From a virus, in the IMG/VR virus record IMGVR_UViG_3300020469_000121, positions 1-35,769 of that record: a stretch of 35,769 bases of DNA. One strand, written 5' to 3'. Shown here in pieces: positions 3-35,769 of the stretch (positions are counted from its first letter, which is position 1; each line of letters starts with the position of its first letter). The position numbers were made by a program, and so were the translations under genes. The notes beneath the pieces were generated by a model. The model was not told the origin of the DNA. It saw only the letters and a program-made list of their open reading frames with translations, and ran no database searches.

Positions 3-296
3 GGTGTAGGAGCTGCACAGACTCTCTATGCAGTGGGCAGTGATATCAAAGCGCTTCAGCCTCCAGAGGGTACTGACAAAGTTAAGAGGCTAGGTGGTCC
101 TAAGAAGGTCAAGAGCCGAGCGCGTGACCGTAAAGTCTTAGAGTGGATCATGTGGGTGTTGCCTCGATGGGCTCTAATCAATCTCATCTACATCATCTGT
201 GAGTTATGGCCTTGGCTCAGCGCTCAGGGATATGTGAAGTGGTTACAAGTCACCGGCAACTTTATAGTGAGAATGTTTTATGGCTCAGGATATTAA
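3..296 (+). CDS. Class III nucleotide cyclase, C-terminal part with membrane anchor (gene completed from 35169)
   Basis: This is the 3' part of the gene that starts at 35169; joined across the 76-bp overlap it gives 267 residues. The part seen here begins at the end of the cyclase domain (residues QTLYAVGSD), followed by a basic linker (GGPKKVKSRARDRK) and a strongly hydrophobic Trp-rich stretch, about residues 215-243 of the joined protein. That stretch probably anchors it in the inner membrane with the catalytic domain in the cytoplasm. A GTG at 33 is an artificial start; there is no ribosome binding site there and homology runs upstream. The first five residues read GVGAA, where the right end of the window reads GVKTP, suggesting strain variation or an assembly edge. 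The stop overlaps the next gene by 17 bases, so the two are probably translated together. Confidence 0.75.
   Translation, partial: GVGAAQTLYAVGSDIKALQPPEGTDKVKRLGGPKKVKSRARDRKVLEWIMWVLPRWALINLIYIICELWPWLSAQGYVKWLQVTGNFIVRMFYGSGY
18..93. repeat. Terminal direct repeat, left copy (76 bp)
   Basis: Bases 18-93 are identical to 35694-35769. The repeat lies inside one coding frame, the cyclase, and the frame is the same in both copies, so the ends can be joined without disturbing the gene. This is what a circular or circularly permuted genome looks like after assembly. A true terminal redundancy would look the same. Bases 1-17 are not part of the exact repeat: they match the sequence before the right copy at only 10 of 17 positions but keep the same frame. 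Confidence 0.9.
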
Positions 297-771
297 ACAG
301 CGTAAGTCAGAGAAAGAGCTGAGCGCTATAGAGAAGACTAAGAGAGGGTGGTGGTTCTCTGTCTTCTTCATGCTCTTAGTAGTTGGGCTCATCTTGTTTC
401 TGACTTATGTGGAGATAGTCGAAAAGAACAGAGATGTCTTGGTGGGTATACTCGGGATGATCACCGGCTCGATCTCGTCGATGATGGCTATAGCGTCAGG
501 TCGAGACCCCTCAGAAGTCGAGGATCTCAAAGACAAGCTAGCATCAGCCAACGCTGATAGAGAAGCATTGATAGGCAGGTTGAGAGATGCACAGATACAG
601 ATGCAACTTAGCCGGGAGCAGATCTCAGAACTGCAGACAGCAGTCATAGAGAAGCTATCCATCTTTTCAGGTCAACGACCGATTAAGACAAAAGATCCTG
701 ATCAAGTTATACTCCCCCCTACGGTTGAGGAGTGGTTGCCTGAAATTGAATCTGTGGACAGAGGTGATTAG
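280..771 (+). CDS. Two-helix membrane protein with coiled coil, partner of the cyclase gene
   Basis: 163 residues, not assigned to a named family. Two hydrophobic helices are visible at about residues 25-48 (GWWFSVFFMLLVVGLILF) and 52-75 (DVLVGILGMITGSISSMMAI). They are followed by a heptad-rich charged region, about 80-130, predicted to be a coiled coil, and a proline-rich acidic tail. The layout recalls small phage membrane proteins with a pair of helices ending in a Gly/Ser-rich turn, some of which are annotated as holin-like. It starts inside the end of the cyclase gene (17-base overlap) and lies on the same strand, so co-expression is likely. It could be a holin-like protein, an effector that responds to the cyclase product, or unrelated. 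No cyclic-nucleotide-binding domain was recognised. Confidence 0.7.
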   Translation: MAQDIKQRKSEKELSAIEKTKRGWWFSVFFMLLVVGLILFLTYVEIVEKNRDVLVGILGMITGSISSMMAIASGRDPSEVEDLKDKLASANADREALIGRLRDAQIQMQLSREQISELQTAVIEKLSIFSGQRPIKTKDPDQVILPPTVEEWLPEIESVDRGD

Positions 772-1428: not shown

Positions 1429-2847
1429 ATGATAGACGAACAGAGGCCACCAAAACACCTTAAAGCACTGCACCCACGTTTAGGGGTGAAGGGTATTTCA
1501 GGTACTCAACTCTCCGGTGGCAACATCACTGGTAAAGAGAATAATCCTCAACTCACTGGCCTCAATTGGGTCACTGAAGCTGAAGAGATGATGAGGACTG
1601 ACCCCATCGTTCGACGATCTTGGCATATGCTAAGGCAGACTCTCCTCTCAGCTTCATGGCGTTGGGAGCCTGGTGTTGAAAATGATGAGGTAGCTGAGGA
1701 GCTCGCTCGATATGCAAATGAGTGCTGGGGCCTAGATGGTTTCTCAGGTCAAATGTCTATCTCATGGGAAGAGCAACTTGCTTACCTCTTAGAGTTTATA
1801 CCTCTTGGTTATCGATACGCTGAGGAGGTCTATAAAGTCGGGCCTGACTCAGAAGGTAGAATCAGAGTGTGGCTGTCACACTATGCAGATCGTGAACCAT
1901 CAGCGCACTCACAATGGTTATCACGTGATAATCAGCGACTAGATGGTGTGCTACAAAATACCGTAGGTGTTGGTAAACAGCCTAGTCCTATACCAGCTAA
2001 TAAGCTCCTCTTACTCACCCTCAATAAAACAGGTTCAAACTTTGAGGGCGTCGGTATGCTGAGGCCTGTGTGGTGGTGGTGGCGTACTAAGCAACGTGTC
2101 GCTAACCTTATGTGTGTAGGGCTAGACCGTTGGGCAGTGCCATCACCTAAGGTGGTAGTCGACCGTTCACAAGCTGAGTCTTTAGGCCTCAGTGATGGTG
2201 ACATTGACTCGATGATCAATGACGCTGAAGCACAAGCACAGGCATTTATCAGCGCTGAGCAGAGCTATCTAGTTGAGAACGCTGCAGTCAAGTTTGACAC
2301 TTATGCAGCTACTCCGAATCTATACGCTGATGGACCCATTAACATTATCACTAAGTGTGACTCACAGATTGCATCTGCTTTCTTGGCTCAGTTTGCTGAC
2401 CTTGGAAATACTGAGACTGGCGCTCGTAGTGTTGGTGAGATCCACCTATCAATCTTTAGACGTGCTGCTATCAACCTTTGTGATCTCGTAGCATCTCAAG
2501 CTAGTGGCATTGATAGACGTGGTGGTGGGACCATAGGCCGGCTGATCCGTTGGAATTATGGTTGTATCGATCCTAGCAAGCTACCAAAACTCACCCACAC
2601 AGGACTAGACACTGATGACCTAGCAGACTCACTAGGTATGCTCCCTGGTCTTGTTCAATCTGGTCTACTTACTCCTGATGATGATCTCGAGAGAGCAATC
2701 AGAGAACGGCTAGGAGCTGGTGACCTGCCAGAGGATGCACAGCGCTCAGCTATCTCTCGAGTGTCTAGCATTGGCAGTGGTGGTGCTGTGTCTGCACTTA
2801 CTGAGCAACTAATCAGAAGGAGGCGAGATGGCAAAAAAACGAAATAG
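1429..2847 (+). CDS. Portal protein (Mu gp29/DUF935-like)
   Basis: 472 residues, the usual size for portal proteins. The portal forms the dodecameric ring at one head vertex through which DNA enters and leaves. Support: the N-terminal plan (EAEEMMRTDPIVRRSWHMLR), a central region with a Trp-rich turn (RPVWWWWRTKQRVAN), and a C-terminal helical part with SQIASAFLAQFADLG, which resembles DUF935/Mu gp29-type portals. The position is right too: first gene of the head module, directly before an I-type protease/scaffold gene that it overlaps by 20 bases. The start has an AGGGG ribosome binding site. The C-terminus is strongly basic (RRRRDGKKTK). Confidence 0.85.
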   Translation: MIDEQRPPKHLKALHPRLGVKGISGTQLSGGNITGKENNPQLTGLNWVTEAEEMMRTDPIVRRSWHMLRQTLLSASWRWEPGVENDEVAEELARYANECWGLDGFSGQMSISWEEQLAYLLEFIPLGYRYAEEVYKVGPDSEGRIRVWLSHYADREPSAHSQWLSRDNQRLDGVLQNTVGVGKQPSPIPANKLLLLTLNKTGSNFEGVGMLRPVWWWWRTKQRVANLMCVGLDRWAVPSPKVVVDRSQAESLGLSDGDIDSMINDAEAQAQAFISAEQSYLVENAAVKFDTYAATPNLYADGPINIITKCDSQIASAFLAQFADLGNTETGARSVGEIHLSIFRRAAINLCDLVASQASGIDRRGGGTIGRLIRWNYGCIDPSKLPKLTHTGLDTDDLADSLGMLPGLVQSGLLTPDDDLERAIRERLGAGDLPEDAQRSAISRVSSIGSGGAVSALTEQLIRRRRDGKKTK

Positions 2848-10599: not shown

Positions 10600-12490
10600 T
10601 ACTATTGATATTGAGGTCAGCTTAGACAGCAAGGAGGCCTTAAAAGGTCTAGGAAAGCTTGACGGTGCTGGTGAGGCTGTTGGTGAGACATTTAACTCAA
10701 TGGGTCAAGCTGTTGGTAAGATGGGCGGTGAAGTTAATGAAAAGCTTGGTGCTATGGGTGAGTCAGTAGGTGCTTTAAGTGGATCTTTTAAAGATCTAAG
10801 CTCAGCTGCTATGGCGCCCGGTGCATCATTCACTGCTTTACTAGGTCCTATTGGAGCTGTGGTCATTGGCATCATAGAGCTGTCTAAAGCTTTTGATGAG
10901 TACACAGGCAAAGCTCAGGAGGCAGAAATAAGAGTTGAGTCTTATAGAGCTGCCACTGCTGAACTTACTACTGTAGTTGAAGAGCTTGCAGCTGCTCAGG
11001 TGAATCTTAATAAAGCTCAAATAGAAGAGTTAAGGATTGCAAGCCTGAAAGCAAAGGAGCCTCTTGAGCGGGCTCAAATGATTAGAGAAGCCAACGCCAC
11101 CAAAAAAGGTGAGATTGATAAGCTTGATGAAAGAATCAAAGAGCTTAGAGTTGAAGAGAGTAGTGCTGCTTTTAGAGGTCTTGCAGCTCAAGCCGGTGGC
11201 TTAGCTAAAGTAGAAAATGTTCGAATTACAAGGTTAGAAAAACGAAGGAGCAAGATCAGAAAGGAGATTGAGCAAGCCGAGAAGAGAGCGTTGAAGCTAA
11301 CTATTGAAGGCGCTCAAGAGACTGTGAAGCTTGAGAAGACAAAAGAAGACATGCTCAAGCTGTCACCTAAGTTTCAAAAGGAACTTGCTGAGAAAGAGCG
11401 TAAGATTAGAGAGCAAGCGCAGATTGATTCTCTTCAAAGCGCCAAGGATACACAGAAGGCTCAAATACAAATAGCTAAGATACAAAGCTCTCAAAAGATT
11501 AGAGAGATCAAGGCTGTTGAGGATATCAGTGAGAAGGTAAGGTCAGCTTCAATCCTAGGCGAGCGTAAGAGACTCGAGTCTCAGATAGCAGATATAGAGA
11601 AGTCCTTTGCTGATAAGAGAGCAAGCGCTAGGACTGCTCGAGTAAACAAGAGACTAGCTGATCAGAAGATAGCAGACGCTAAGAGAATCATGCTTGAGCG
11701 TCAGGCACAGAATGAATTATTCAGCCTCAGAGCTTTGCAGATTCAGCAGATGAAACAAGCCGGCGCTACTGAGTTACAGATACTAGAATCACAGCATCAA
11801 CTGGAACAAGATCGAGCTAGAGAAAATCATGCTCTACTCTTAGCTGCTGATATTCGCTTTGAGATGGCAAAGACTGAGCTTGTAAAGAGTCAAGAGGCAG
11901 AGAGAGAGAAGGCTAGACTTGATGCTTTTGAGAAGAATCAGGCTACACTCACTCAATTAAGAGACAGTGTACAAGACCAGATCAATCAGGCTGGTGAGTT
12001 CGCGTCTGCTTTTGGTGGTGCTTTTAGTGAGGCTGCTTTTGGTGCAATCTTCATGGGTGAGTCTATTAAAGAGTCAATAGCTCAGATCATATTTGGACTA
12101 GGTAAGGAGGCTGCAGTAAGATCTCTGATGGAGACTGCTAAGGGCTTTGCATCTCTTGTATTGAATCCGGCAGTAGCAGCTAATCACTTCACAGCTGCAG
12201 GGATATTCGGAGGGTTAGCAGCTACGGCCGGCGGTGCAGGTATGGCCTTAAGTAGTGGTGGCAGTGGTGGCGGTGGGGGTAGTGCATCACCAAGTGGAGC
12301 TCCACAGATAGCACCGACGCCAGAGAGAGAAAGCGCTCAGGAGACAAGCACTGTCTTCAATATCAACTTTGGTGGCGCTGTGATCTATGACACTCGTCAG
12401 GCTGCGGAGAGGGCTATGGTTGATAGACTCGTAGGTGTAATGAATCAGCGTAACAGAGGCGCTCGACGCCTTAACCTAGGGAGATCATAA
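10592..12490 (+). CDS. Tape measure protein
   Basis: 632 residues. A Gly/Ala-rich N-terminus is followed by a hydrophobic helix (about 76-98, FTALLGPIGAVVIGIIELSK). Next come a long Lys/Glu/Gln-rich coiled coil (about 120-470), a second hydrophobic region (about 480-560) and a Gly-rich linker (SGGSGGGGGS) before a short C-terminal domain. This is the usual architecture of a siphophage tape measure, which sets tail length and is ejected at infection. At about 1.5 angstrom per residue the tail would be near 95 nm. It has a good GAGGAG ribosome binding site. Confidence 0.85.
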   Translation: MASTIDIEVSLDSKEALKGLGKLDGAGEAVGETFNSMGQAVGKMGGEVNEKLGAMGESVGALSGSFKDLSSAAMAPGASFTALLGPIGAVVIGIIELSKAFDEYTGKAQEAEIRVESYRAATAELTTVVEELAAAQVNLNKAQIEELRIASLKAKEPLERAQMIREANATKKGEIDKLDERIKELRVEESSAAFRGLAAQAGGLAKVENVRITRLEKRRSKIRKEIEQAEKRALKLTIEGAQETVKLEKTKEDMLKLSPKFQKELAEKERKIREQAQIDSLQSAKDTQKAQIQIAKIQSSQKIREIKAVEDISEKVRSASILGERKRLESQIADIEKSFADKRASARTARVNKRLADQKIADAKRIMLERQAQNELFSLRALQIQQMKQAGATELQILESQHQLEQDRARENHALLLAADIRFEMAKTELVKSQEAEREKARLDAFEKNQATLTQLRDSVQDQINQAGEFASAFGGAFSEAAFGAIFMGESIKESIAQIIFGLGKEAAVRSLMETAKGFASLVLNPAVAANHFTAAGIFGGLAATAGGAGMALSSGGSGGGGGSASPSGAPQIAPTPERESAQETSTVFNINFGGAVIYDTRQAAERAMVDRLVGVMNQRNRGARRLNLGRS

Positions 12491-19788: not shown

Positions 19789-21774
19789 ATGAGTATCGGG
19801 TCAAGTTCATTTCAAGGCGGTGGTGGTGGTGCTAGCTCAGACACACTTAATGATGTCACAGGTAGAGGCGCGACAACGGCTAATAACATTCAAGTTGGTG
19901 GTTTAAATATCGCAGGCAGCTATGCCATGCCATCAGCTGATGGTTCAGTTAATCAAGTCTTGCAGACTGATGGTAGTGGCTCACTCTCATTCACGACTAT
20001 AAGCGTGACGGGTGGCTTAACTTATAAAGGTACATACTATCTTAGTTCACCTGCTGACCTAAGCAACGCGGTTCAAGGTGACTTCTATATCATTCAAGGG
20101 GACGGAACGCTTTACGGCAAAGCATGGATTACCGGTGACCATCTTGTAGTTAATGATGATATGGGTGGATCAGTATCTAACGGTAAGATTGATAAGATCG
20201 ATAACACTGATATAGTGACCAGCGTTAATGCATTAACAGGTCCTGTGGTCTTGAACGGTACTAACGTTGACGGTGACCACACAGCCACCAACTACAGCAC
20301 GACTAGTGACAAGATTGAAAAGCATTTTGAAGGTATTGATAATAAGTTTGGTACCCTTGGCACAGCGTCGGTTAAAGACACAGGAGTAGCCAACGGTAAT
20401 GTTATTGTGGCTGATGCAACGGGTCTACCTGAGATCGATGGCTCACAACTCACCGGCGTAACAGGGACAGATGCAACCAAGCTAGTTATAGCTAATAACT
20501 TAAGTGACCTTAACAACGCAGGGACAGCTCGAACTAATCTAGGTCTAGTCATTGGCACTGATGTATCAGCTATTGCATCACCTGCATTTACAGGCTCACC
20601 CACTGCACCAACACAAAGCGCTGGTGATGACTCAACCAAGATCGCAACGACTGCCTATGTAGAAGCTGCAGTAACAGCCGGTGGAGGTCTGTCTTCAGTA
20701 GTGCAAGACACTTCACCTGAGTTAGGTGGTAATCTGGATGTGTTAGCGCGCTCGATTGTCTCTAGCTCAAATAGAGCTATCACGCTTACTCCAGATGGGT
20801 CTGGTCTAGTTGAGATTTCTGGCAATGCTACGAGTGGATCTGGACAGATAAAACTTAACTGTGAGCAGAACACTCATGGAATTAAGCTAAAGAGCCCACC
20901 CCATAGCGCTACTGCTGATTACACTCTTGTATTCCCTGATGATCTTGGAACATCTGGTAAAGTGCTAACTACCAATGGCGGTGGTGGTGGTGGCTCGACC
21001 ATAGGCACACTAACATGGGAGACTGTAAGCACCACAGATACAACTAAGTTAGCTATACTCAACAACCTCAGCGACCTAGACAACGCCGGCACAGCTCGAA
21101 CTAATTTAGGGCTAGTCATTGGCACTAATGTTCAAGCTTATGATCCAGGTCTCACGTCTATTGCAGGTCTAACAACAGCAGCTGACAAGATGATCTTTAC
21201 AGATGGATCTGACTCTTATGCTGTAACAGATCTAACGTCAGCCGGTCGAGCCCTACTAGATGATGCAGATGCTTCAGCTCAGCGAACTACATTAGGTCTA
21301 GTCATTGGTACTGATGTTGCACCCATCGCAGCTCCTGCCTTTACTGGCAATGCTACGGCGGTAACACAGAGTTCAGGAGATGACTCAACCAAGATCGCAA
21401 CGACTGCTTATGTAGATGCTGCAGTGGTCGCCGGTGGTGGTAGTGTAACCATCAGTGATGTCGTTGTCAGCGGTGACACTGGTGATGTCACAGCCGTTTT
21501 TGCAAACTCAGGCACAAATGGAGACAATGAGCGTGTTTATTTAATCAATAATAGTGCTAATGCTCGAACTGTGACACTACCTGCGGTCTCCGGAAAAACA
21601 GGTAAGCAATTTCAAATTAAACGACTTGGGACTGCAAATGTGACTGTAGCTGTCCAAGCATCTGAAAAGCTCGATACAACAACCAACGGAACATTTGTTT
21701 TAACATCTCAATACTCGTCAGTTACGTTGATGTGCAATGCAACGGGGACGCTTGACGGCTGGTACATTATATAA
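19789..21774 (+). CDS. Tail fibre protein
   Basis: 661 residues. The Gly-rich N-terminus (FQGGGGGASSDTLNDV) and body carry repeats typical of trimeric fibres. Examples are TKLAILNNLSDLDNAGTART with NLGLVIGT, seen twice with small changes and once in part, and AFTGSPTAPTQSAGDDSTKI followed by ATTAYV...AAV, seen twice. The C-terminal domain (VNGDNERVYLINNSANARTVTLPAV... TLDGWYII) resembles the head of phage fibres that contact the host. The ATG has AAAAGGA 8 bases upstream. The fibre binds the host surface and should be one of the most exchangeable genes. Confidence 0.75.
   Translation: MSIGSSSFQGGGGGASSDTLNDVTGRGATTANNIQVGGLNIAGSYAMPSADGSVNQVLQTDGSGSLSFTTISVTGGLTYKGTYYLSSPADLSNAVQGDFYIIQGDGTLYGKAWITGDHLVVNDDMGGSVSNGKIDKIDNTDIVTSVNALTGPVVLNGTNVDGDHTATNYSTTSDKIEKHFEGIDNKFGTLGTASVKDTGVANGNVIVADATGLPEIDGSQLTGVTGTDATKLVIANNLSDLNNAGTARTNLGLVIGTDVSAIASPAFTGSPTAPTQSAGDDSTKIATTAYVEAAVTAGGGLSSVVQDTSPELGGNLDVLARSIVSSSNRAITLTPDGSGLVEISGNATSGSGQIKLNCEQNTHGIKLKSPPHSATADYTLVFPDDLGTSGKVLTTNGGGGGGSTIGTLTWETVSTTDTTKLAILNNLSDLDNAGTARTNLGLVIGTNVQAYDPGLTSIAGLTTAADKMIFTDGSDSYAVTDLTSAGRALLDDADASAQRTTLGLVIGTDVAPIAAPAFTGNATAVTQSSGDDSTKIATTAYVDAAVVAGGGSVTISDVVVSGDTGDVTAVFANSGTNGDNERVYLINNSANARTVTLPAVSGKTGKQFQIKRLGTANVTVAVQASEKLDTTTNGTFVLTSQYSSVTLMCNATGTLDGWYII
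20626..20672 (+). repeat. 47-bp near-identical repeat in the fibre gene, copy 1
   Basis: Matches 21379-21425 at 45 of 47 bases and encodes the DDSTKIATTAYV motif of the fibre repeats. Neighbouring parts of the same protein repeats have diverged much more at the DNA level, so this stretch may be kept similar by recombination. Confidence 0.8.
21379..21425 (+). repeat. 47-bp near-identical repeat in the fibre gene, copy 2
   Basis: Second copy of the repeat at 20626-20672, two mismatches. Recombination between the copies would delete 753 bp in frame and shorten the fibre. Confidence 0.8.
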
Positions 21775-21787
21775 TAGGGGTCTTAGG

Positions 21788-22300
21788 ATGACGTATATTA
21801 TTGAAGACTTTTCAAGTCGAACGATTTCGCGGACTACTGTCACAACACATGAGGGCATTGACGTATCTGCATACGCTGAAATACCAAGCTCAGTAGTATC
21901 TATTTTACCTTCGTTAGCATCATCAAAAATAATGTATAGATACACGTGCTATATTAACCCATATCAGGTGAGCGGGCCGACTGGGCGAAACTGTAGAACA
22001 CATTTTAAATTACAAAAAAACATAGCGTCGGCTGGCTGGACTGATGTTGGTGGGTGTGAAGCAAATGAAATTTTTGAATCAGCCTTCTCACAACCGATGT
22101 GTCAACGCTCGCTAACAATGCGATTCAGCCTCACGCCAAGCGCAGGATCTCACAGCTTCAGATTAGTAGCTAAAAGTTTTTCAAGTTCGTATCGCTCCGC
22201 TTTGCATCTTATGCATTTTTGGAGCGGGTCAATAGCACTCTCAGGCAATGCAGGTTTAGGTAAATCATTTTACCCCGTCGCCGAGGTTTATGAGTTATGA
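21788..22300 (+). CDS. First of three tandem paralogous small proteins after the fibre gene
   Basis: 170 residues from the ATG at 21788 (TTAGG just upstream). No family recognised. The plan, a Tyr/Cys strand (MYRYTCYINPYQ), then TMRFSLTPSAGSHSFRLVAKSF, then ...YPVAEVYEL at the end, recurs in the next two genes. The gene follows the fibre closely and overlaps the next start. Composition is richer in A/T-ending codons and lacks the CTAG words common elsewhere, as if acquired. An accessory adsorption protein is likely. Confidence 0.5.
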   Translation: MTYIIEDFSSRTISRTTVTTHEGIDVSAYAEIPSSVVSILPSLASSKIMYRYTCYINPYQVSGPTGRNCRTHFKLQKNIASAGWTDVGGCEANEIFESAFSQPMCQRSLTMRFSLTPSAGSHSFRLVAKSFSSSYRSALHLMHFWSGSIALSGNAGLGKSFYPVAEVYEL

Positions 22301-22794
22301 CATTTATTAATAATGCATCTAGTAACATACTAGACGAAACGACACTAACGACGACGCACACATCAGCTCAAAGCGTATCTACAACTAGAGCTATTATAAC
22401 GGGGTCTGATATTCAATATACTCCCACGGCTAATTCCACTCATGTTTTGTATCAGTGTGCATTCCAATACATTTCAAATCCAGATGCAGACACACATCTG
22501 TTTGTTTCATTAGTGAATAAAACAAACATAGGTGATGCCTGGTCGTATGTAGCTGATAAGAGTTTTGCTATTTCTGTAGTTGATAGCGCTCAGTCGTGCA
22601 GTTTTGAGAATATTGAGATTCTGGTCCCTACGTGGTCTGGCTCCAAATATCTAGCGCTGTATATTAGATCCGCTCTTTCATCTACAGAGACAAGTTTACA
22701 TCAATTAAAAATGGATGACTCAGGCTATAATACAGGTAATGAAAATTTCGTTGACACATTAACATCATGCAGCTCTCTGAGGTCAGGAACATGA
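22297..22794 (+). CDS. Second tandem paralogous small protein
   Basis: 165 residues. It shares with its neighbours the MTF start, IITGSDIQYTP followed by VLYQCAFQY (compare the third gene, IIGSSIDYTP and VEYRFQCLA), and a later strand after a Trp-Ser-Gly turn (WSGSKYLALYIRSA). The C-terminus (DTLTSCSSLRSGT) lacks the aliphatic ending of its neighbours and may reflect an old frameshift. It overlaps the upstream gene by 4 bases. Confidence 0.5.
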   Translation: MTFINNASSNILDETTLTTTHTSAQSVSTTRAIITGSDIQYTPTANSTHVLYQCAFQYISNPDADTHLFVSLVNKTNIGDAWSYVADKSFAISVVDSAQSCSFENIEILVPTWSGSKYLALYIRSALSSTETSLHQLKMDDSGYNTGNENFVDTLTSCSSLRSGT

Positions 22795-23306
22795 CATTTA
22801 ATCCGAGCACGACGGGAGCGCGTAATTTAATTTGCTCAGTTTCTAGCGCAAGCAAAACACAGTATAACACTACATTAGCACAGATTATTGGGAGTTCAAT
22901 TGATTATACTCCAGCCCCAAATTGTCAAATAGTTGAGTATCGTTTTCAATGCCTTGCAAATTATTCACCAGAGGCCAACGACCTACTACAATTTTCATTG
23001 ATGTATGATGATACTGTGGCGTTAGACCCAGAAACAGAAATTCTTAGTTTTACTGAGTTGGTTGGGGGTCAGTCAGGTTGGGGCGGGAATGCAAATTCTC
23101 AATCTGGTCTGTTAAACCTGCGGTTTTCTATACCGTCATGGGGTTCGGCTCAAAGGCGACTTGTAGTTGCATGTCGAGCATATACAAACTCCTTACAAGG
23201 AACTTTGCACTGGACTGATCAATTTAGAGAGGATGATGTTGATGCAGCACTAGCTACCGATGACTCCTTTAAATTCTCACCGCATTTGATTGTGTACAGT
23301 CTATAA
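22791..23306 (+). CDS. Third tandem paralogous small protein
   Basis: 171 residues from the ATG at 22791, chosen because it overlaps the previous stop (ATGA) just as the second gene does, with AGGAAC upstream. Both the second and third genes open with the same ten bases, ATGACATTTA. Shared motifs: IIGSSIDYTP, VEYRFQCLANY, LNLRFSIPSWGSAQRRLVVACRAY and the final LIVYSL, corresponding to the first gene's EVYEL. Function unknown; fibre-associated by position. Confidence 0.5.
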   Translation: MTFNPSTTGARNLICSVSSASKTQYNTTLAQIIGSSIDYTPAPNCQIVEYRFQCLANYSPEANDLLQFSLMYDDTVALDPETEILSFTELVGGQSGWGGNANSQSGLLNLRFSIPSWGSAQRRLVVACRAYTNSLQGTLHWTDQFREDDVDAALATDDSFKFSPHLIVYSL

Positions 23307-23319
23307 GAGAGCTCTAATA

Positions 23320-23637
23320 GTGTTTAACTTTAATATATCAAAAGATATGGCTAAATACACAGGCGCTGTGTCTCTCGTCTTTGGCGCTTGGCTAGGCGCT
23401 TATGTTTGGGGTCTTCATCTAGGAGCTGCACAATCTGAGCAGACTCACAAGGAGGAGCTCGCTGAATGTGTTGTCAAAGTCGATGAGGTGCATGCTCAGA
23501 TGGTCGACGCTCAGCTTAAGCTTGTCGAGTGTGAAGCGATCAAGGCCGGCAAATGTGCTCTCAACTGTGAAGCTATAGCTCAAGAGCGTGTTGACTCTGT
23601 ACTACAAGATCTTCAAGAGGTGATGTGTGCAGACTAG
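23320..23637 (+). CDS. Membrane-anchored coiled-coil protein, inner-membrane spanin candidate
   Basis: 105 residues from the GTG at 23320 (AAGAGAG 8 bases upstream). One N-terminal hydrophobic helix (about 14-36, AVSLVFGAWLGAYVWGLHLG) is followed by a charged helical region (about 40-100) containing several Cys (VECEAIKAGKCALNCEA). This is the topology of an inner-membrane spanin, which with an outer-membrane partner disrupts the outer membrane at lysis. No sequence similarity to Rz was recognised. It overlaps the next gene by 11 bases, as spanin genes often overlap. Confidence 0.4.
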   Translation: MFNFNISKDMAKYTGAVSLVFGAWLGAYVWGLHLGAAQSEQTHKEELAECVVKVDEVHAQMVDAQLKLVECEAIKAGKCALNCEAIAQERVDSVLQDLQEVMCAD

Positions 23638-24079
23638 TCTACTGAGTCTCATCATCTGGCTGTCTCCTCTGCTGCCTGAGCAGATACCTGCCAAGACTAT
23701 TTATATGGGTGAGCACGTCAAGCCGGTAATAGGTGAGCGCTCGAAGTGCAAAAGTCTCACAGGGTTCTGCATGACGCTGACTCTTCGAGACTTTCTAAAA
23801 GTCAAAGATGCTGTACAGAATCAACCAGGTCTTTGTCATCTAGCTGTGACGTCAACTGCTAGCGCTTGCAGAGATCAAGCTGAGTCTCTAGCTGACCTTG
23901 TTAGTCAGAGGACGTTAGAAGATCAGCAGATTATTGACTCATATAAGATCAAGCTAGATGCTTTAGAGCTTACGCTTGCTGAGACTGAAGAGAAGCGCTT
24001 TAAGTGGAAGTGGGTGAGCGCGTCTCTCGTAGGCCTCAGCGCTATTCTTACAACTACCATCATCATCATCAGGAAGTGA
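23627..24079 (+). CDS. Secreted/membrane protein with terminal hydrophobic helices, lysis-region
   Basis: 150 residues from the GTG at 23627 (AAGAGG 6 bases upstream). An N-terminal hydrophobic stretch (about 3-16, SLLSLIIWLSPLL) is probably a signal or anchor. A middle part with four Cys (CKSLTGFC, CHLAV, CRDQ) and a helical region (about 80-120) leads to a C-terminal hydrophobic helix (about 127-148, WVSASLVGLSAILTTTIIII). Together with its neighbours it suggests a membrane-spanning lysis complex. No lipobox was seen, so it is not a clear outer-membrane spanin. Confidence 0.4.
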   Translation: MQTSLLSLIIWLSPLLPEQIPAKTIYMGEHVKPVIGERSKCKSLTGFCMTLTLRDFLKVKDAVQNQPGLCHLAVTSTASACRDQAESLADLVSQRTLEDQQIIDSYKIKLDALELTLAETEEKRFKWKWVSASLVGLSAILTTTIIIIRK

Positions 24080-24082
24080 CTC

Positions 24083-24325
24083 ATGGACCTATCGAGCGTA
24101 GACATTGGCGTCATTGTGGCAATAGTAGGCCTAGTGTTTAAAGGCGCTCAGGACTCAGCTAGACAAGCAGAAGAGATGGGCCGTTTAAAACAACAGGTCC
24201 ATTCACTTGAAGCTAGGGGCGGTCGATGGGATGAACGCTTCAATGATATCGAGCGTGATCTCTCTGACATTAAAGCCAGCTTAGCCAGAGTGGAAGCTGT
24301 GCTCACTCACATCGAACAGAGATAG
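24083..24325 (+). CDS. Small membrane-anchored coiled-coil protein
   Basis: 80 residues, with AGGAAG before the ATG. One N-terminal hydrophobic helix (about 7-20, IGVIVAIVGLVFKG) is followed by a long amphipathic helix (about 25-78) in heptads (LKQQVHSLEARGGRWDERFNDIERDL...). The mix recalls XhlA-type and other holin-accessory proteins, though in XhlA the anchor is at the other end. It is the last gene of the late operon; its stop directly touches the stop of the leftward gene. Confidence 0.45.
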   Translation: MDLSSVDIGVIVAIVGLVFKGAQDSARQAEEMGRLKQQVHSLEARGGRWDERFNDIERDLSDIKASLARVEAVLTHIEQR

Positions 24326-25525
24326 TTAGTAGCCCATCACTTTATTATAGACCTCTCTTACTGCTGGCATGCCTTGTTTCTTCTCAATGATAGCCTTCAG
24401 GGTCTGCTGTGCAAGCATCCAGAGTGATCCACCTTCTTGAATGTACGCTGCTACTCGGCACAGCTCAAAGAAGGCATCATTGACCTCTACAAAAGCTCTG
24501 ACAATGTCACTGTGGTCAACGCTCGCGAGTATCTTAAACTCTAGCTGTATCTCATTAAAGACATGTGAGTATGAGGTGCGACGTTGCCACCACTCATCTT
24601 CAAGAGCATTGTTTTCTCTCACAACTTCAGAGAAGGCCCAACGATAGAAGAATGTCTTATGATCCTCTGGGCTGAGATCCTGAGCATCAAGACCATGATT
24701 AGCCATTGAATTGACTGCATCCATCACTTGTAAACCTATGTTCTTATATGTGGCCTCTATCTTAGATAGATCGTCAAAGCCTGTGCTAGGAGTCGGAGCG
24801 TAAGCTATTGGATCATCAGCTCGATGTTTTCGGCCGGTGGGCATAGGTGGCACAGGCAGACTGTTAATAGACTGATCAATCTCAATGTGCTGAGGAGCTG
24901 GCTGAGGTCGTGGCTGTGTAGATGGTTGTGGCATTGGCTGTGGAGATCGGGTGAGATCTGCATTAGTGCCAAAAGAGAGAGCCATAGCTTCATCAAGCTC
25001 CTCACCTTGAAGCCCAACAGAATCAGCCATCTCATCAATGGTATACATACCTGAGCAGACCTCTGGCATACCAATCCGGCAAACCCAAGCACCAGATCTG
25101 GCACTTAGCATTGCTCCTCTAATCTTATTCCACATGTGCCCTTTAGCCCAACCAGCTTGAACGGCCATATCATAAGTCACCCTAATGACGTGAATGACAT
25201 CATCAGGCTCATCATTACGCTTCAACTCCCATGTCGATGCTTCATCAGAACGCTCAGTCTCACGTAGATATGTTGTGTTTGGATTCATACGCACAAGGGC
25301 CATTTGACCAGCAGCGCTAATACTAGGCGTCCCTTGAATGGTTGCAGTATTGCGTTGAACCATCCCTAGATCATACCCAAACTGAGCTCCAAAATAAGAG
25401 TATCGTTTGGCAAGGTCATCGGGATTCTGAGGGTGTACAAAAAGACAAAGCATTTTGAAGTGTTCAATGTCATCTTGACGAGGGATGAACCGAAAAGGCG
25501 CGTAGGGGAGTTTTGGATTGTTCAT
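24326..25525 (-). CDS. RecT-like single-strand annealing protein candidate
   Basis: 399 residues from the ATG at 25525 (complement), with AGAGAG upstream; an upstream ATG at 25642 would run through the neighbouring gene. Residues about 65-170 follow the RecT-type pattern: SISAAGQMALVR, a Tyr/Glu strand (YLRETERSDEASTWELKR), then TYDMAVQAGWAKGHMWNKIR, GAMLSARSGAWVCRIGMPEV and CSGMYTIDEM. The last two stand where RecT relatives have the ML.ARA and P.V..G.Y..EE motifs. A Pro/Gln-rich linker (about 195-220) leads to a helical C-terminal domain. Such proteins anneal single strands during replication-linked recombination. It is the last gene of the repressor operon, so it may be expressed in the lysogen. 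Confidence 0.6.
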   Translation of the reverse strand: MNNPKLPYAPFRFIPRQDDIEHFKMLCLFVHPQNPDDLAKRYSYFGAQFGYDLGMVQRNTATIQGTPSISAAGQMALVRMNPNTTYLRETERSDEASTWELKRNDEPDDVIHVIRVTYDMAVQAGWAKGHMWNKIRGAMLSARSGAWVCRIGMPEVCSGMYTIDEMADSVGLQGEELDEAMALSFGTNADLTRSPQPMPQPSTQPRPQPAPQHIEIDQSINSLPVPPMPTGRKHRADDPIAYAPTPSTGFDDLSKIEATYKNIGLQVMDAVNSMANHGLDAQDLSPEDHKTFFYRWAFSEVVRENNALEDEWWQRRTSYSHVFNEIQLEFKILASVDHSDIVRAFVEVNDAFFELCRVAAYIQEGGSLWMLAQQTLKAIIEKKQGMPAVREVYNKVMGY

Positions 25526-25544
25526 GATGTTTGTCTCTCTGTTC

Positions 25545-25880
25545 TTAGTGATGTGAAGGGAACATAGGCCACTGTTTAGCCTGATTAATCTGCTCATAGC
25601 TGGTGTCTGTGTGTCGAGCGCACCATGTTGAGGCATTGGCATAGGTCGACTCTTTGCGAATCAATAGACGACCTTGGAAGGGTGATAAGCCTTTAGTCAC
25701 TCTTAGAGCGCAGTCTCTATTAGAATCATGTGTGTTACCCACTGAGCAGATAAGACCCATGATGAAGATAGACAAGATCAAGAGGCCTATCATTGTCATG
25801 TCTGATTTAAGTTGTTTGTCTGGGTGCATGTTGTGTTCAATCTTCACAGGTCTGATAAATAGTTCTGTTGTAGTGTTCAT
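25545..25880 (-). CDS. Single-helix membrane protein in the repressor operon
   Basis: 111 residues, GGAG before the start, 3 bases after the repressor stop. A polar N-terminal cytoplasmic part (1-27) and one hydrophobic helix (about 29-46, MTMIGLLILSIFIMGLICSV) precede a soluble tail with two Cys (DCALRV, WCARH) that would lie in the periplasm. No family recognised. Genes co-expressed with a prophage repressor often change the lysogen, for example by excluding other phages. Confidence 0.5.
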   Translation of the reverse strand: MNTTTELFIRPVKIEHNMHPDKQLKSDMTMIGLLILSIFIMGLICSVGNTHDSNRDCALRVTKGLSPFQGRLLIRKESTYANASTWCARHTDTSYEQINQAKQWPMFPSHH

Positions 25881-32375: not shown

Positions 32376-32586
32376 GCCAAGTAGAGAGCGCACCTATTAC
32401 AGAGTCGAAGGGACTTATCATAAGGTATGTGAAGAGGACCGATCAACAGACTGGTTAATCATCTACTATGACTCTCTAGATGTATTGCTAGGCACAACCA
32501 TAAGCGTAACTCAAGTTGATGTGAATGGACTTCAGAGAACGCTAGAATATCAAGCGACATCTGAGGGTCTGGCCTTTGTCTCTTAA
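32332..32586 (+). CDS. Small hypothetical protein between the terminase genes
   Basis: 84 residues; GAGGAA lies before the ATG. Mixed alpha/beta with a Tyr/Thr-rich strand pattern (RTYYRVEGTYHKV, DWLIIYYDSLDVLLGTT). No family recognised. It overlaps the small terminase by 44 bases and the large terminase by 11, so it is likely expressed with them and may help packaging. Confidence 0.5.
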   Translation: MMKVRVKLKRQWTVEPSRERTYYRVEGTYHKVCEEDRSTDWLIIYYDSLDVLLGTTISVTQVDVNGLQRTLEYQATSEGLAFVS

Positions 32587-33937
32587 TCTCAATCCGCTTC
32601 AACAGGATATCATTGGAGCGATAAGAGGAGAGGAGCGGATTATCTCGGCTCGATGTGGGTGGGGATCTGGCAAAACCTCAGCGCTAGTCTTTTCACTTCT
32701 ATTCATCAGCAAGTGGAGAGCAGGCAGGAGCTCCTTACTTGTCACAGATACTAATCCGCGTTACAATAGTGTGCTCCTACCTGAGATGGAGAAATGGTTA
32801 GCTCCGCTTGGGTGGACCTATAACCACACGTTGAGACAGTGGCTAGATCCACAGACGGGCTCGACGGTGTGGTGTAGGTCTTACTATAGACCTGGTACAC
32901 GTGATGCGACTCACAATCCTCTCGAGGGTTTAAATGTGACTAGTGGCGTCTGTCTCATCGATGAATGTCAGACGCTATCTGCAGAGGTAGCTCACAAAGC
33001 TTTAGGTCGATTGAGAGCAGGACCAACACCCATCATGATTCTCGTTGGCCTACCTGTTAGCGGTGCATGGTGGGTGGATATGGCTGAGACAGCAGGGTGT
33101 CAACCTATGCTCTACACGTCCTATGTCAATGAGGACAATCTTAGCGCTGAGTGGTTTGAGGCAACTAAGTTGCTACCCAAAGCGGAGCGTGACGCTATGG
33201 TCCTCAATAAGCCTCGACCACCAACAGGTCTAATCTACTCAGAGTTTAATGAGGAGGTTCATGTCATCGAAGGTTGGAAATATAAGCCCACCATGTCAGG
33301 GCGTATAGCAATAGATTGGGGATTCAGGAAACCATCAGTGTTGATCATTGTCCATGATGATGAGCTAGGCGCTGACGTGGTATGTGGTGAGCTTAACCCT
33401 GCTGAGGTCACTGTCGATGAGCTCGCTAGACTTATACTCATAACAGCGTGGCCTAGGTCACTGAAGAGTGAAGCACCTAGTGATAGGATCTGGTTAGACT
33501 ATGGAGTCGCTGACAAGGCAGGTAGAGCGCGAAATGATCAGACGGGGAGGTCAGCGTTTAAGGCTATGAGAGCACCACCACCACTAGGTCTAGGTATGCC
33601 ACTGAGGTCAAACACAGACCCCATCAGGACAGATGTGCTTAATGGTATTCAGCGTCTCAAAAGGTGCTTTGCTAGAGGTCAGTATTTAGTAACACGTGAG
33701 GTCTGGGATGCCGGAGAGCGCGCCACAGGTAACAGCCTGAGGAAAGCGATCTATTCTTATGGTTGGGATAATAAAGAGCAGCCTAAGAAGGATGGACGTG
33801 AGGACCCACTTGACGCGCTACGCTATGACGCAATAACGTGGAACTGGTCAGACACTCTGGTTGATCAGAGGTCATATACATCTAGGACGCCAATAAGCCG
33901 GAAGGTGAAAGTCGGCGGTAAAGGGGGAAGGTTTTGA
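32576..33937 (+). CDS. Terminase large subunit
   Basis: 453 residues from the TTG at 32576, GAGGG 8 bases upstream. The ATPase domain has Walker A GWGSGKTS (28-35) and Walker B CLIDE (127-131). The RNase H-like nuclease domain begins with IAIDWGFRKPSVLI (Asp248), continues with LDYGVADKAGRARND and ends with DPLDALRYDAITW, which supplies later metal-binding Asp residues. The enzyme cuts phage concatemers and pumps DNA through the portal. It is separated from the portal gene only by the nucleotide-metabolism and accessory genes once the ends are joined. Confidence 0.88.
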   Translation: MSLNLNPLQQDIIGAIRGEERIISARCGWGSGKTSALVFSLLFISKWRAGRSSLLVTDTNPRYNSVLLPEMEKWLAPLGWTYNHTLRQWLDPQTGSTVWCRSYYRPGTRDATHNPLEGLNVTSGVCLIDECQTLSAEVAHKALGRLRAGPTPIMILVGLPVSGAWWVDMAETAGCQPMLYTSYVNEDNLSAEWFEATKLLPKAERDAMVLNKPRPPTGLIYSEFNEEVHVIEGWKYKPTMSGRIAIDWGFRKPSVLIIVHDDELGADVVCGELNPAEVTVDELARLILITAWPRSLKSEAPSDRIWLDYGVADKAGRARNDQTGRSAFKAMRAPPPLGLGMPLRSNTDPIRTDVLNGIQRLKRCFARGQYLVTREVWDAGERATGNSLRKAIYSYGWDNKEQPKKDGREDPLDALRYDAITWNWSDTLVDQRSYTSRTPISRKVKVGGKGGRF

Positions 33938-34086
33938 AGCGACTATATAAGAATTGGACAGTGCATAATTTGATAGCTCATCCACTTATGGAGATCTTGA
34001 GACTCATTAGTCTAGGCAAGCTCAATAATATAGGTGGGATCATTCATGATGCAACCTTACCTGAGCATGAGGAGGGGAAAGGGTGA
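33934..34086 (+). CDS. Conserved 50-residue phage protein (WTVHNLIAHP type)
   Basis: A 50-residue gene starting at TTG 33934, overlapping the terminase stop, with a good GGGGGAAGG upstream. The sequence WTVHNLIAHPLMEIL...GG, then IHDATLPE, matches a small protein I remember from many phages, often encoded near nucleotide-metabolism or terminase genes, with unknown function. It overlaps thyX by 4 bases (GTGA). Confidence 0.7.
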   Translation: MKRLYKNWTVHNLIAHPLMEILRLISLGKLNNIGGIIHDATLPEHEEGKG

Positions 34087-34763
34087 ATATCTACGGCGGT
34101 CAAGGTTATGCCTGTCTACTCTCATCAATGGGTGAGGATCACACACCAGCTTTAGCAGCGCGTGTTAGTTTTGCTGACTATGAGAATGGATTGATGAATG
34201 ATCGTAATCTGAGGCTGATTAAGTACTTGGCTAAACACCAGCACACATCACCTTTCGAGCATCAGACTGCCTCTTTTGTCATTGACTGTCCCATCTATGT
34301 AGCTAGGCAGATCATGAGGCATAGGACATTCAGCTATAATGAAGTGAGCCGGCGCTATACATCTGAAGCGCTAGACTTTCATCTACCCGATGAGTTGAGA
34401 GCACAAGCTAAAAGTAATCTGCAATGCTCGACCTCTGAAGTCGTGAACCGGTCTGATGAGTTTGTGGGGCTTATCGAGCGCCATCAGGATCTCAGCCTAG
34501 AGATGTATAATGAGCTTATCGAGTCAGGAGTAGCTAGAGAGCAAGCGCGCGCCGTTCTACCTCAATCTCTCAACACTACCTTCTGGATGACAGGAAACCT
34601 CTTGAACTGGTCTAAGTTCTTGAAGCTCAGGCTAGACTCACACTCACAGCCAGAGACTAGAGAAGTAGCTGAGGCTATCATGATTCAACTTGGTAAACTG
34701 TGGCCTATTAGTCTCTCAGCTCTGCTAGGTGATCATGTTAAAACACATCAAGCTGAGAATTGA
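34083..34763 (+). CDS. thyX: Flavin-dependent thymidylate synthase
   Basis: 226 residues starting at GTG 34083. The ThyX signature RHRTFSYNEVSRRYT is at 79-93, preceded by SPFEHQTASFVIDCP, the FAD/dUMP-binding region. Later, the Arg/Leu-Pro motif (EQARAVLPQSLNTTF) and the C-terminal SHSQPETREVAEA are as in the family. The enzyme methylates dUMP to dTMP using methylenetetrahydrofolate and FADH2. With the deaminase encoded next it forms a short path from dCMP to dTMP for phage DNA synthesis. Confidence 0.92.
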   Translation: MNIYGGQGYACLLSSMGEDHTPALAARVSFADYENGLMNDRNLRLIKYLAKHQHTSPFEHQTASFVIDCPIYVARQIMRHRTFSYNEVSRRYTSEALDFHLPDELRAQAKSNLQCSTSEVVNRSDEFVGLIERHQDLSLEMYNELIESGVAREQARAVLPQSLNTTFWMTGNLLNWSKFLKLRLDSHSQPETREVAEAIMIQLGKLWPISLSALLGDHVKTHQAEN

Positions 34764-35196
34764 TCAGGCTCAACTCTTAGCCTCATGCTCACCTTGCCCA
34801 CGTGGTCAGGTAGGTGCAGTCATATATAATCCTGAGTCATGGGCTGTGATAGCTGATGGATATAATGGACCTCCTCGAGGAGGGTCTAGGCTGTGTCACT
34901 CAGATCATACTTGCTCACGTATCGACCTTAATATTATCAGTGGTCAGCGTGTCGAGGTTGGCTGTCATCATGCTGAAGCTAACGCCATAGTTAACGCTTC
35001 AAGACTTGGGGCATCTACCCTAAATGCTCATCTAGCTGTCACGCGTTCACCTTGTCTTAACTGTGCTAAACTGATTCATCATGCAGGTATAAAAGCAGTG
35101 TACTCACCAGACGATGGTGACCAGCCGGGTATCGATTATCTGATTAAGCATAATGTGGAGGTAGTGAGATGGTCGACCTCAAAGAGAGACAGCTAG
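34735..35196 (+). CDS. dCMP deaminase
   Basis: 153 residues from the ATG at 34735. The zinc site is clear: HAE at 79-81 (His79 ligand, Glu81 catalytic) and PCLNC at 106-110 (Cys107, Cys110). GQVGAVIYNPE and DGYNGPPRGG are the standard early motifs of this family, and CHSDHTC is the additional Cys/His cluster seen in phage-type dCMP deaminases. It makes dUMP, the substrate of ThyX, and overlaps thyX by 29 bases. It overlaps the cyclase start by 28 bases. Confidence 0.88.
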   Translation: MLKHIKLRIDQAQLLASCSPCPRGQVGAVIYNPESWAVIADGYNGPPRGGSRLCHSDHTCSRIDLNIISGQRVEVGCHHAEANAIVNASRLGASTLNAHLAVTRSPCLNCAKLIHHAGIKAVYSPDDGDQPGIDYLIKHNVEVVRWSTSKRDS

Positions 35197-35769
35197 CTAT
35201 CGTACTACTTGACCTCATAGGCTCTACTGCTTTTGTCGAGAAAGTAGGCGCTAAAGATGCAGCCATCTGGCTTCAGTATCATGACCGGCTTGCAAGGTCT
35301 TTGCTGTATAAGTTCGACGGTAGAGAGATAGATCGATCTGATGGTTTTATGCTGAGCTTTGATCGACCCATCGACGCCGTCAACTTTGCACTGATCTATC
35401 AACAGACTATTCCTGCTAAGACTCACCTCAATACACGTATCGGTATCCACTGGGGTACAGTCATTGAAGTAATCCAAGATGATACTTGGACAGCAGTGGG
35501 CGCTAAACGAGTTGAGCTTGAGGGCATCAGTAAGAATATAGCAGCTAGAACGATGAGCTTATGTGGAGCTGGTCAAGTGCTCCTGACATCTGAAGCGCTA
35601 GAGTCTGTGAAGGGCGCGACCAATGCATTCACACCAAAGGGCACTCGATATGTGATGATAGGTCTTTATAAATTCAAAGGTGTAAAGACTCCTCAGACTC
35701 TCTATGCAGTGGGCAGTGATATCAAAGCGCTTCAGCCTCCAGAGGGTACTGACAAAGTTAAGAGGCTAG
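35169..35769 (+). CDS. Class III nucleotide cyclase, N-terminal catalytic domain (gene continues at the start of the window)
   Basis: Starts at ATG 35169 with GGAGG 7 bases upstream and runs off the end; joined to 94-296 it gives 267 residues. Class III cyclase features: metal-binding Asp15 in VLLDLIGST and Asp58 in RSDGFMLSF, the strand RIGIHWGTVIEV (90-101), and transition-state Asn123 and Arg127 in KNIAARTMSL. The base-reading parts are not standard. The usual Lys before the second Asp is absent (GREIDRSDG), and the loop before Asn123 carries about eight extra residues (GAKRVELEGISKN). GREIDxxDGF with GAKxxExEG is a variant I remember from Myxococcota-like bacteria. The product could be cAMP, cGMP or a pyrimidine cyclic nucleotide. 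Confidence 0.75.
   Translation, partial: MVDLKERQLAIVLLDLIGSTAFVEKVGAKDAAIWLQYHDRLARSLLYKFDGREIDRSDGFMLSFDRPIDAVNFALIYQQTIPAKTHLNTRIGIHWGTVIEVIQDDTWTAVGAKRVELEGISKNIAARTMSLCGAGQVLLTSEALESVKGATNAFTPKGTRYVMIGLYKFKGVKTPQTLYAVGSDIKALQPPEGTDKVKRL
35694..35769. repeat. Terminal direct repeat, right copy (76 bp)
   Basis: Identical to 18-93 and in the same reading frame of the cyclase gene. See the left copy for interpretation. Confidence 0.9.

Follow-up and report, generated by a model that had tools for sequence, protein, structure and literature searches.

Cyclic-nucleotide signalling in conflicts between phages and their hosts is known mainly from the bacterial side (Pycsar, CBASS, Panoptes), and phages destroy or sponge the signals. 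In Pycsar (PycC with PycTM or PycTIR), a class III cyclase is encoded together with a membrane protein (PMC11224242), and in Panoptes a nucleotide synthase (OptS) and a protein with two transmembrane helices (OptE) occupy two genes (PMC12657218). SLATT proteins with two transmembrane segments have been proposed as nucleotide-responsive pore formers (PMC7159879). Phage cyclases as such are already known; pelagiphages carry an adenylate cyclase within curli (type VIII secretion system, T8SS) clusters (PMC9599517). Here we report a class III nucleotide cyclase gene and an adjoining gene for a protein with two transmembrane segments (2TM) in the virus record IMGVR_UViG_3300020469_000121, an IMG/VR contig classed as linear, whose 35,769 nucleotides were analysed in full (the window). 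We tentatively read the two genes as a phage-owned cyclic-nucleotide module composed of a membrane-attached cyclase and the 2TM protein, a reading whose chances we put slightly below even. No published description of the pair was found in a literature search that fell short of most subscription journals.

The locus shares its two-gene arrangement with Panoptes and, like Pycsar, places a class III cyclase beside a membrane protein. It differs from Pycsar in being carried by phages, in base-reading residues that depart from those of BcPycC, EaPycC and AnPycC (PMC11224242), and in a partner without a recognisable cyclic-nucleotide-binding domain. PADLOC held no family for the cyclase, and the families hit with the 2TM alignment included none from Pycsar; membership in Pycsar was rejected on these results. 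An original prediction, made from the letters of the window, had suggested that the enzyme might interfere with Pycsar, for which the PADLOC searches gave no direct support. The pelagiphage enzyme is likewise phage-encoded, but stands with CsgF, CsgG and FecR (compared here by description; PMC9599517). CsgG was absent from all eight records tested, and identity with the curli-cluster cyclase was rejected on that ground.

The cyclase gene

The two genes are laid out in the window as follows.

35169..35769, + strand: class III nucleotide cyclase gene, 5' part (residues 1-200), with D15, D58, E116, N123 and R127 in the catalytic domain; runs off the contig end
94..296, + strand: same cyclase gene, 3' part (residues 201-267 and stop) when the ends are joined, with a basic linker and a C-terminal hydrophobic helix
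1..93, + strand: overlap with 35677-35769, an assembly end repeat within the cyclase gene and no separate feature
280..771, + strand: 2TM partner gene, 163 amino acids, with transmembrane helices at about 21-50 and 53-72 and a coiled coil at about 77-129; 17-nt overlap with the cyclase stop

The cyclase reading frame (35169..35768) has 200 codons and is open at the window end. Because the contig ends overlap by 93 bp (86 of 93 bases identical, 76 of them in the exact match 18-93 = 35694-35769), the frame resumes at 94..296 and the joined protein has 267 residues. In four relatives (L003-L006) the gene is uninterrupted, and the DNA alignment crosses the junction unbroken at 89-91% identity. Both versions of the differing stretch are natural, GVKTPQ occurring in L003 and L004 and GVGAAQ in L005 and L006. 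A true terminal repeat is therefore unlikely; the contig was probably broken at a strain polymorphism inside the cyclase gene, and the genome is probably circular or circularly permuted.

The identification as a phage-encoded class III cyclase, already made in the original prediction, is supported by sequence and model. PF00211 was the sole Pfam match (E = 2.5e-5; 24.4 bits against a cut-off of 21.9), and its score exceeded the cut-off in seven of eight records tested. A phmmer search of solved structures in the PDB placed Rv1900c at the top (E = 2e-11), with Ma1120 also among the best. An AlphaFold (AF2) model of a 267-residue relative (predicted local distance difference test, pLDDT, 76; predicted template modelling score, pTM, 0.64; a helix at 204-244) showed the fold of the cyclase homology domain, with Foldseek E-values of 5e-14 to Ma1120 and 1e-13 to Rv1900c and target template modelling scores (TM-scores) of 0.86-0.91. 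The phage cyclase has in common with Rv1900c (1ybt/1ybu) and Ma1120 (5d0e, 4wp8) the fold, both metal-binding Asp residues and the transition-state Arg, but is only 24-26% identical to them and carries an additional C-terminal hydrophobic helix.

The catalytic set named in the original prediction is complete in the window (D15 and D58 for the metals, N123 and R127 for the transition state). D58, N123 and R127 are invariant among 108 distinct complete viral homologues, as is D15 in all 107 with a letter at that position. The metal Asp residues and R127 are unchanged in 33 of 33 compared sequences, divergent ones included; N123 is replaced by Ala in the divergent L249, L250 and L255. Since the active site is complete and the gene is under selection, the protein is quite probably an active enzyme. 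The predicted membrane anchor at the C terminus is plausible, if weakly hydrophobic in the window copy, where the best 19-residue Kyte-Doolittle mean is 1.62 against a family median of 1.87.

Cyclases were expected to be very rare in phages. This holds for sequenced and cultured phages, whose 50,697 records contained one weak match (human faecal clone MT838110, 26% identical). Environmental phages differ in this respect: a single scan yielded at least 282 contigs with the cyclase. When 84,980 prokaryote species genomes were scanned with the conserved peptides of the family, only the Rubrivivax/Rhizobacter type described below appeared, which indicates that those genomes contain few prophage copies or none. 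Other, more distant proteins with cyclase domains are present among viral structure models, in uncultured Caudovirales and in giant viruses.

Linkage to the 2TM gene

The partner gene at 280-771, which the original prediction did not mention, is the most informative feature of the locus. It accompanies 111 of 119 distinct viral cyclases, and the remaining eight lack downstream room; where 600 bp or more are available, the count is 111 of 111. Conversely, a cyclase is present for 110 of 111 distinct 2TM genes, the exception beginning at a contig end. At most loci the two frames overlap or touch. A second scan, seeded on a divergent 2TM, gave 80 loci, contigs of 75-375 kb included. The cyclase lay within the flanks in 75 of the 77 newly fetched loci and, by whole-contig search, about 3 kb upstream in the other two. 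The pair occurs across G + C contents of 0.26-0.56, and the loci on the 75-375 kb contigs of large phages keep it without the terminase large subunit (TerL) and portal genes that surround it in small phages. This linkage makes it very probable that cyclase and 2TM act jointly.

The 2TM protein is the sole window protein with two predicted transmembrane segments. Across 30 relatives, very highly conserved stretches lie in these segments and in the coil (RGWWFSV, NRDVLVGILG, TGSISSM, DREALI, RLRDAQIQ). The structure model is of low confidence (pLDDT 66, pTM 0.26) and all-helical, with no strands after the transmembrane segments; the two helices followed by a beta-barrel that characterise S-2TMbeta proteins (Cap15/OptE) were not seen in it. 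No globular ligand domain or nucleotide-binding domain was recognisable in the protein, and a fold search with the model found nothing. The SLATT_fungal family matched 27 of 30 members below threshold (best E 3.4e-5), as against none of ten segment-shuffled controls, and the window protein scored 17.1 bits against the Pfam cut-off of 26.5; AbrB matched 28 of 30, also below the cut-off for the window protein. There was no match to 2TM in cultured-phage records, nor in 399 Pseudomonadota genomes, the latter search having been run without a positive control.

Base recognition, selection and probable exchange

The original prediction described a non-standard base-recognition loop. Compared with Rv1900c, the loop ahead of D58 is indeed one residue shorter and lacks the Lys, and eight additional residues precede N123; instead of the Lys and Asp/Thr pair with which adenylyl cyclases read the base, the window has D55/R56 and E116. 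These traits are not special to the phage. The NCBIfam model TIGR04510, defined as the cyclase of putative peptide-modification systems, gives E-values of 4e-44 to 5e-48 over positions 7-204, although the 151-164 bits obtained over 7-204 of 814 positions stay below its full-length cut-off of 400 bits. By sequence, the window cyclase belongs to the TIGR04510-type subfamily and is a different protein overall. Large Rubrivivax/Rhizobacter proteins share with it GREIDR(S/T)DG (window: IDRSDGF), GAKxxE(V/L)xG(L/I)xK and the 8-residue insert. The bacterial TIGR04510 mod_pep_cyc proteins (L049-L056) differ in their length of 970-1360 residues, in a P-loop-like stretch that follows the cyclase domain and in a Pro or Ala at the position of the phage N123; they are 34-41% identical to the phage cyclase, and no 2TM neighbour was detected at the Rubrivivax/Rhizobacter loci. 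Because the bacterial relatives also lack the Lys and carry the insert, both are subfamily traits, and the idea that they are phage inventions was rejected. Since the determinants of pyrimidine cyclases (Y50/D94/R97, F100/R142/Q144, F60/K104/F109; PMC11224242) are not matched as a set in the window cyclase, no nucleotide product can be assigned.

Positions 56 and 116, which alignment to known cyclases marks as probable base-reading sites, vary jointly among divergent viral homologues. The window type is R56/E116. In homologues from AT-rich contigs, residue 56 is Ala or Asn and residue 116 is Asn, and these A/N-type cyclases form one clade in the cyclase tree (support 100/100). The L255 cyclase resembles the bacterial type (K56, E116, A123) and falls beside the bacterial proteins in the tree, but its branch is very long and its placement uncertain. 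At this locus (L255:2100-2951) the bacterial-like cyclase (IDKTDG, A123) lies beside a phage-type 2TM (78% identical), which suggests that the cyclase was exchanged and the partner retained.

Both genes are under strong purifying selection, with median ratios of nonsynonymous to synonymous substitution rates (Ka/Ks) of 0.08 for the cyclase and 0.05 for 2TM. Divergence in one gene tracks divergence in the other (Mantel r 0.77, a value reached by 0 of 999 permutations). A TerL-seeded scan recovered the cyclase in 58 of the 60 scorable closest loci, so that it comes near to being a core gene in the phage clade of the window. In the cyclase tree this clade groups with large-phage sequences (98/82), and in a wider sample its neighbours are L107/L205 together with other small-phage clades; the pair has likely been exchanged between phage types. 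The A/N-clade cyclases pair with 2TM lineages at three or more places on the 2TM tree, and 2TM proteins can be about 80% identical where the cyclases drop to about 40%. Grouping of neighbourhoods by common flanking proteins chained nearly all loci into one.

It is possible, if somewhat doubtful, that the pair is a virus-specific second-messenger module, the core pair of an uncultured phage clade that has been exchanged with large phages and in which the base specificity of the cyclase was switched at least once (from R56/E116 to A or N56/N116) while the partner was kept. It would then be a phage counterpart of bacterial cyclic-nucleotide immunity. If so, phages, too, would send such signals, by means of a strongly selected cyclase and one dedicated membrane partner. 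The natural occurrence of cyclases that differ at precisely the two putative base-reading positions makes product specificity directly testable.

Candidate roles and surrounding genes

In the module that we tentatively favour, the cyclase would act as a homodimer in which D15 and D58 hold two metals and N123 and R127 stabilise the transition state, and the C-terminal helix would tether it to the inner membrane. The 2TM protein would be a helical-hairpin membrane protein whose cytoplasmic coiled coil engages the cyclase, the pair forming a split membrane-bound cyclase. The cyclase would provide the catalytic output and 2TM would serve as a membrane-facing regulator or anchor, a role that we favour because similar 2TM proteins are partnered by cyclases with different base-reading residues and because no ligand domain is visible; 2TM is thus probably not a base-specific receptor. 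A cyclic mononucleotide would be raised at the membrane while TerL and portal are made, and the likely purpose would be host control or the exclusion of competing phages. Several points weigh against this picture. In L107, L240, L272 and L270 a distance of 1.4-3 kb separates the two genes, and in L294 (2998-4259) their order is reversed, with 2TM first and the cyclase second; these exceptions show linkage and no fixed operon. The proposed late expression is deduced solely from gene position in the small phages, the model of the 2TM protein is a low-confidence one, and the 2TM tree is built on 113 columns, so the number of partner swaps could be inflated.

The main rival is an effector pair of the kind found in Pycsar, CBASS or Panoptes, in which the cyclase product, or its loss, would open 2TM and permeabilise the inner membrane, so that the cell would be killed or closed, for example against a superinfecting phage. 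The two-gene logic of Panoptes and of Pycsar with PycTM and the weak SLATT_fungal likeness of most 2TM proteins, not seen in the shuffled sequences, speak for it. The window protein nevertheless scores below the curated cut-off, and another hairpin family, AbrB, matches about as many members. Together with the want of a recognisable nucleotide-binding domain in 2TM, the use of one 2TM type by cyclases with different base-reading residues, and the absence of a PADLOC match to Pycsar, this makes the effector pair unlikely, though it deserves serious attention.

A holin-like lysis protein, with a cyclase that adjusts the timing of lysis or is just a linked gene, would agree with a two-helix hairpin in a phage structural operon and with the two predicted transmembrane segments that set 2TM apart in the window. 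We consider it improbable, given that 2TM has no holin family match, that small transmembrane proteins after the tail fibre are better-placed lysis candidates, and that we know of no holin with a dedicated cyclase partner. The cyclase might also merely raise host cAMP or cGMP to steer metabolism beside a passively linked neighbour. CRP-type regulators are common recipients of the signals made by class III cyclases. Adenylate cyclase genes occur in other phages, for example in a curli cluster of pelagiphages (PMC9599517). The lack of CsgG in the eight records speaks against this explanation, and a passive neighbour is disfavoured because the complete linkage (111 of 111) persists in differing phage backgrounds; it, too, has little to recommend it.

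In the small phages, the pair sits between TerL and a Mu-like portal gene, often beside genes for ThyX and dCMP deaminase. The window has the same surroundings.

32576..33937, + strand: terminase large subunit (TerL)
34083..34763, + strand: ThyX thymidylate synthase
34729..35196, + strand: dCMP deaminase; 28-nt overlap with the cyclase start
1429..2847, + strand: Mu-like portal protein (PF06074)

Between the 2TM and portal genes, an open reading frame (ORF) of 177 amino acids (808-1341) was present in no checked relative except the window's own fragment; its HCSP...G.LFFS stretch may be ADP-ribosyltransferase-like. In L107, a 153-kb contig with 30% G + C, three ORFs (10936-12285) lie between the cyclase and 2TM, two of them starting with MTYIK, and ORFs after the tail fibre of the window (21737-23306; MTFINN/MTYIIED) are somewhat like them. 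The small transmembrane proteins that follow the tail fibre (23290-24325) resemble a lysis cassette and gave no informative family matches. On the opposite strand, 24326-25642 (-) encodes a RecT-like annealing protein with a weak PHROG match.
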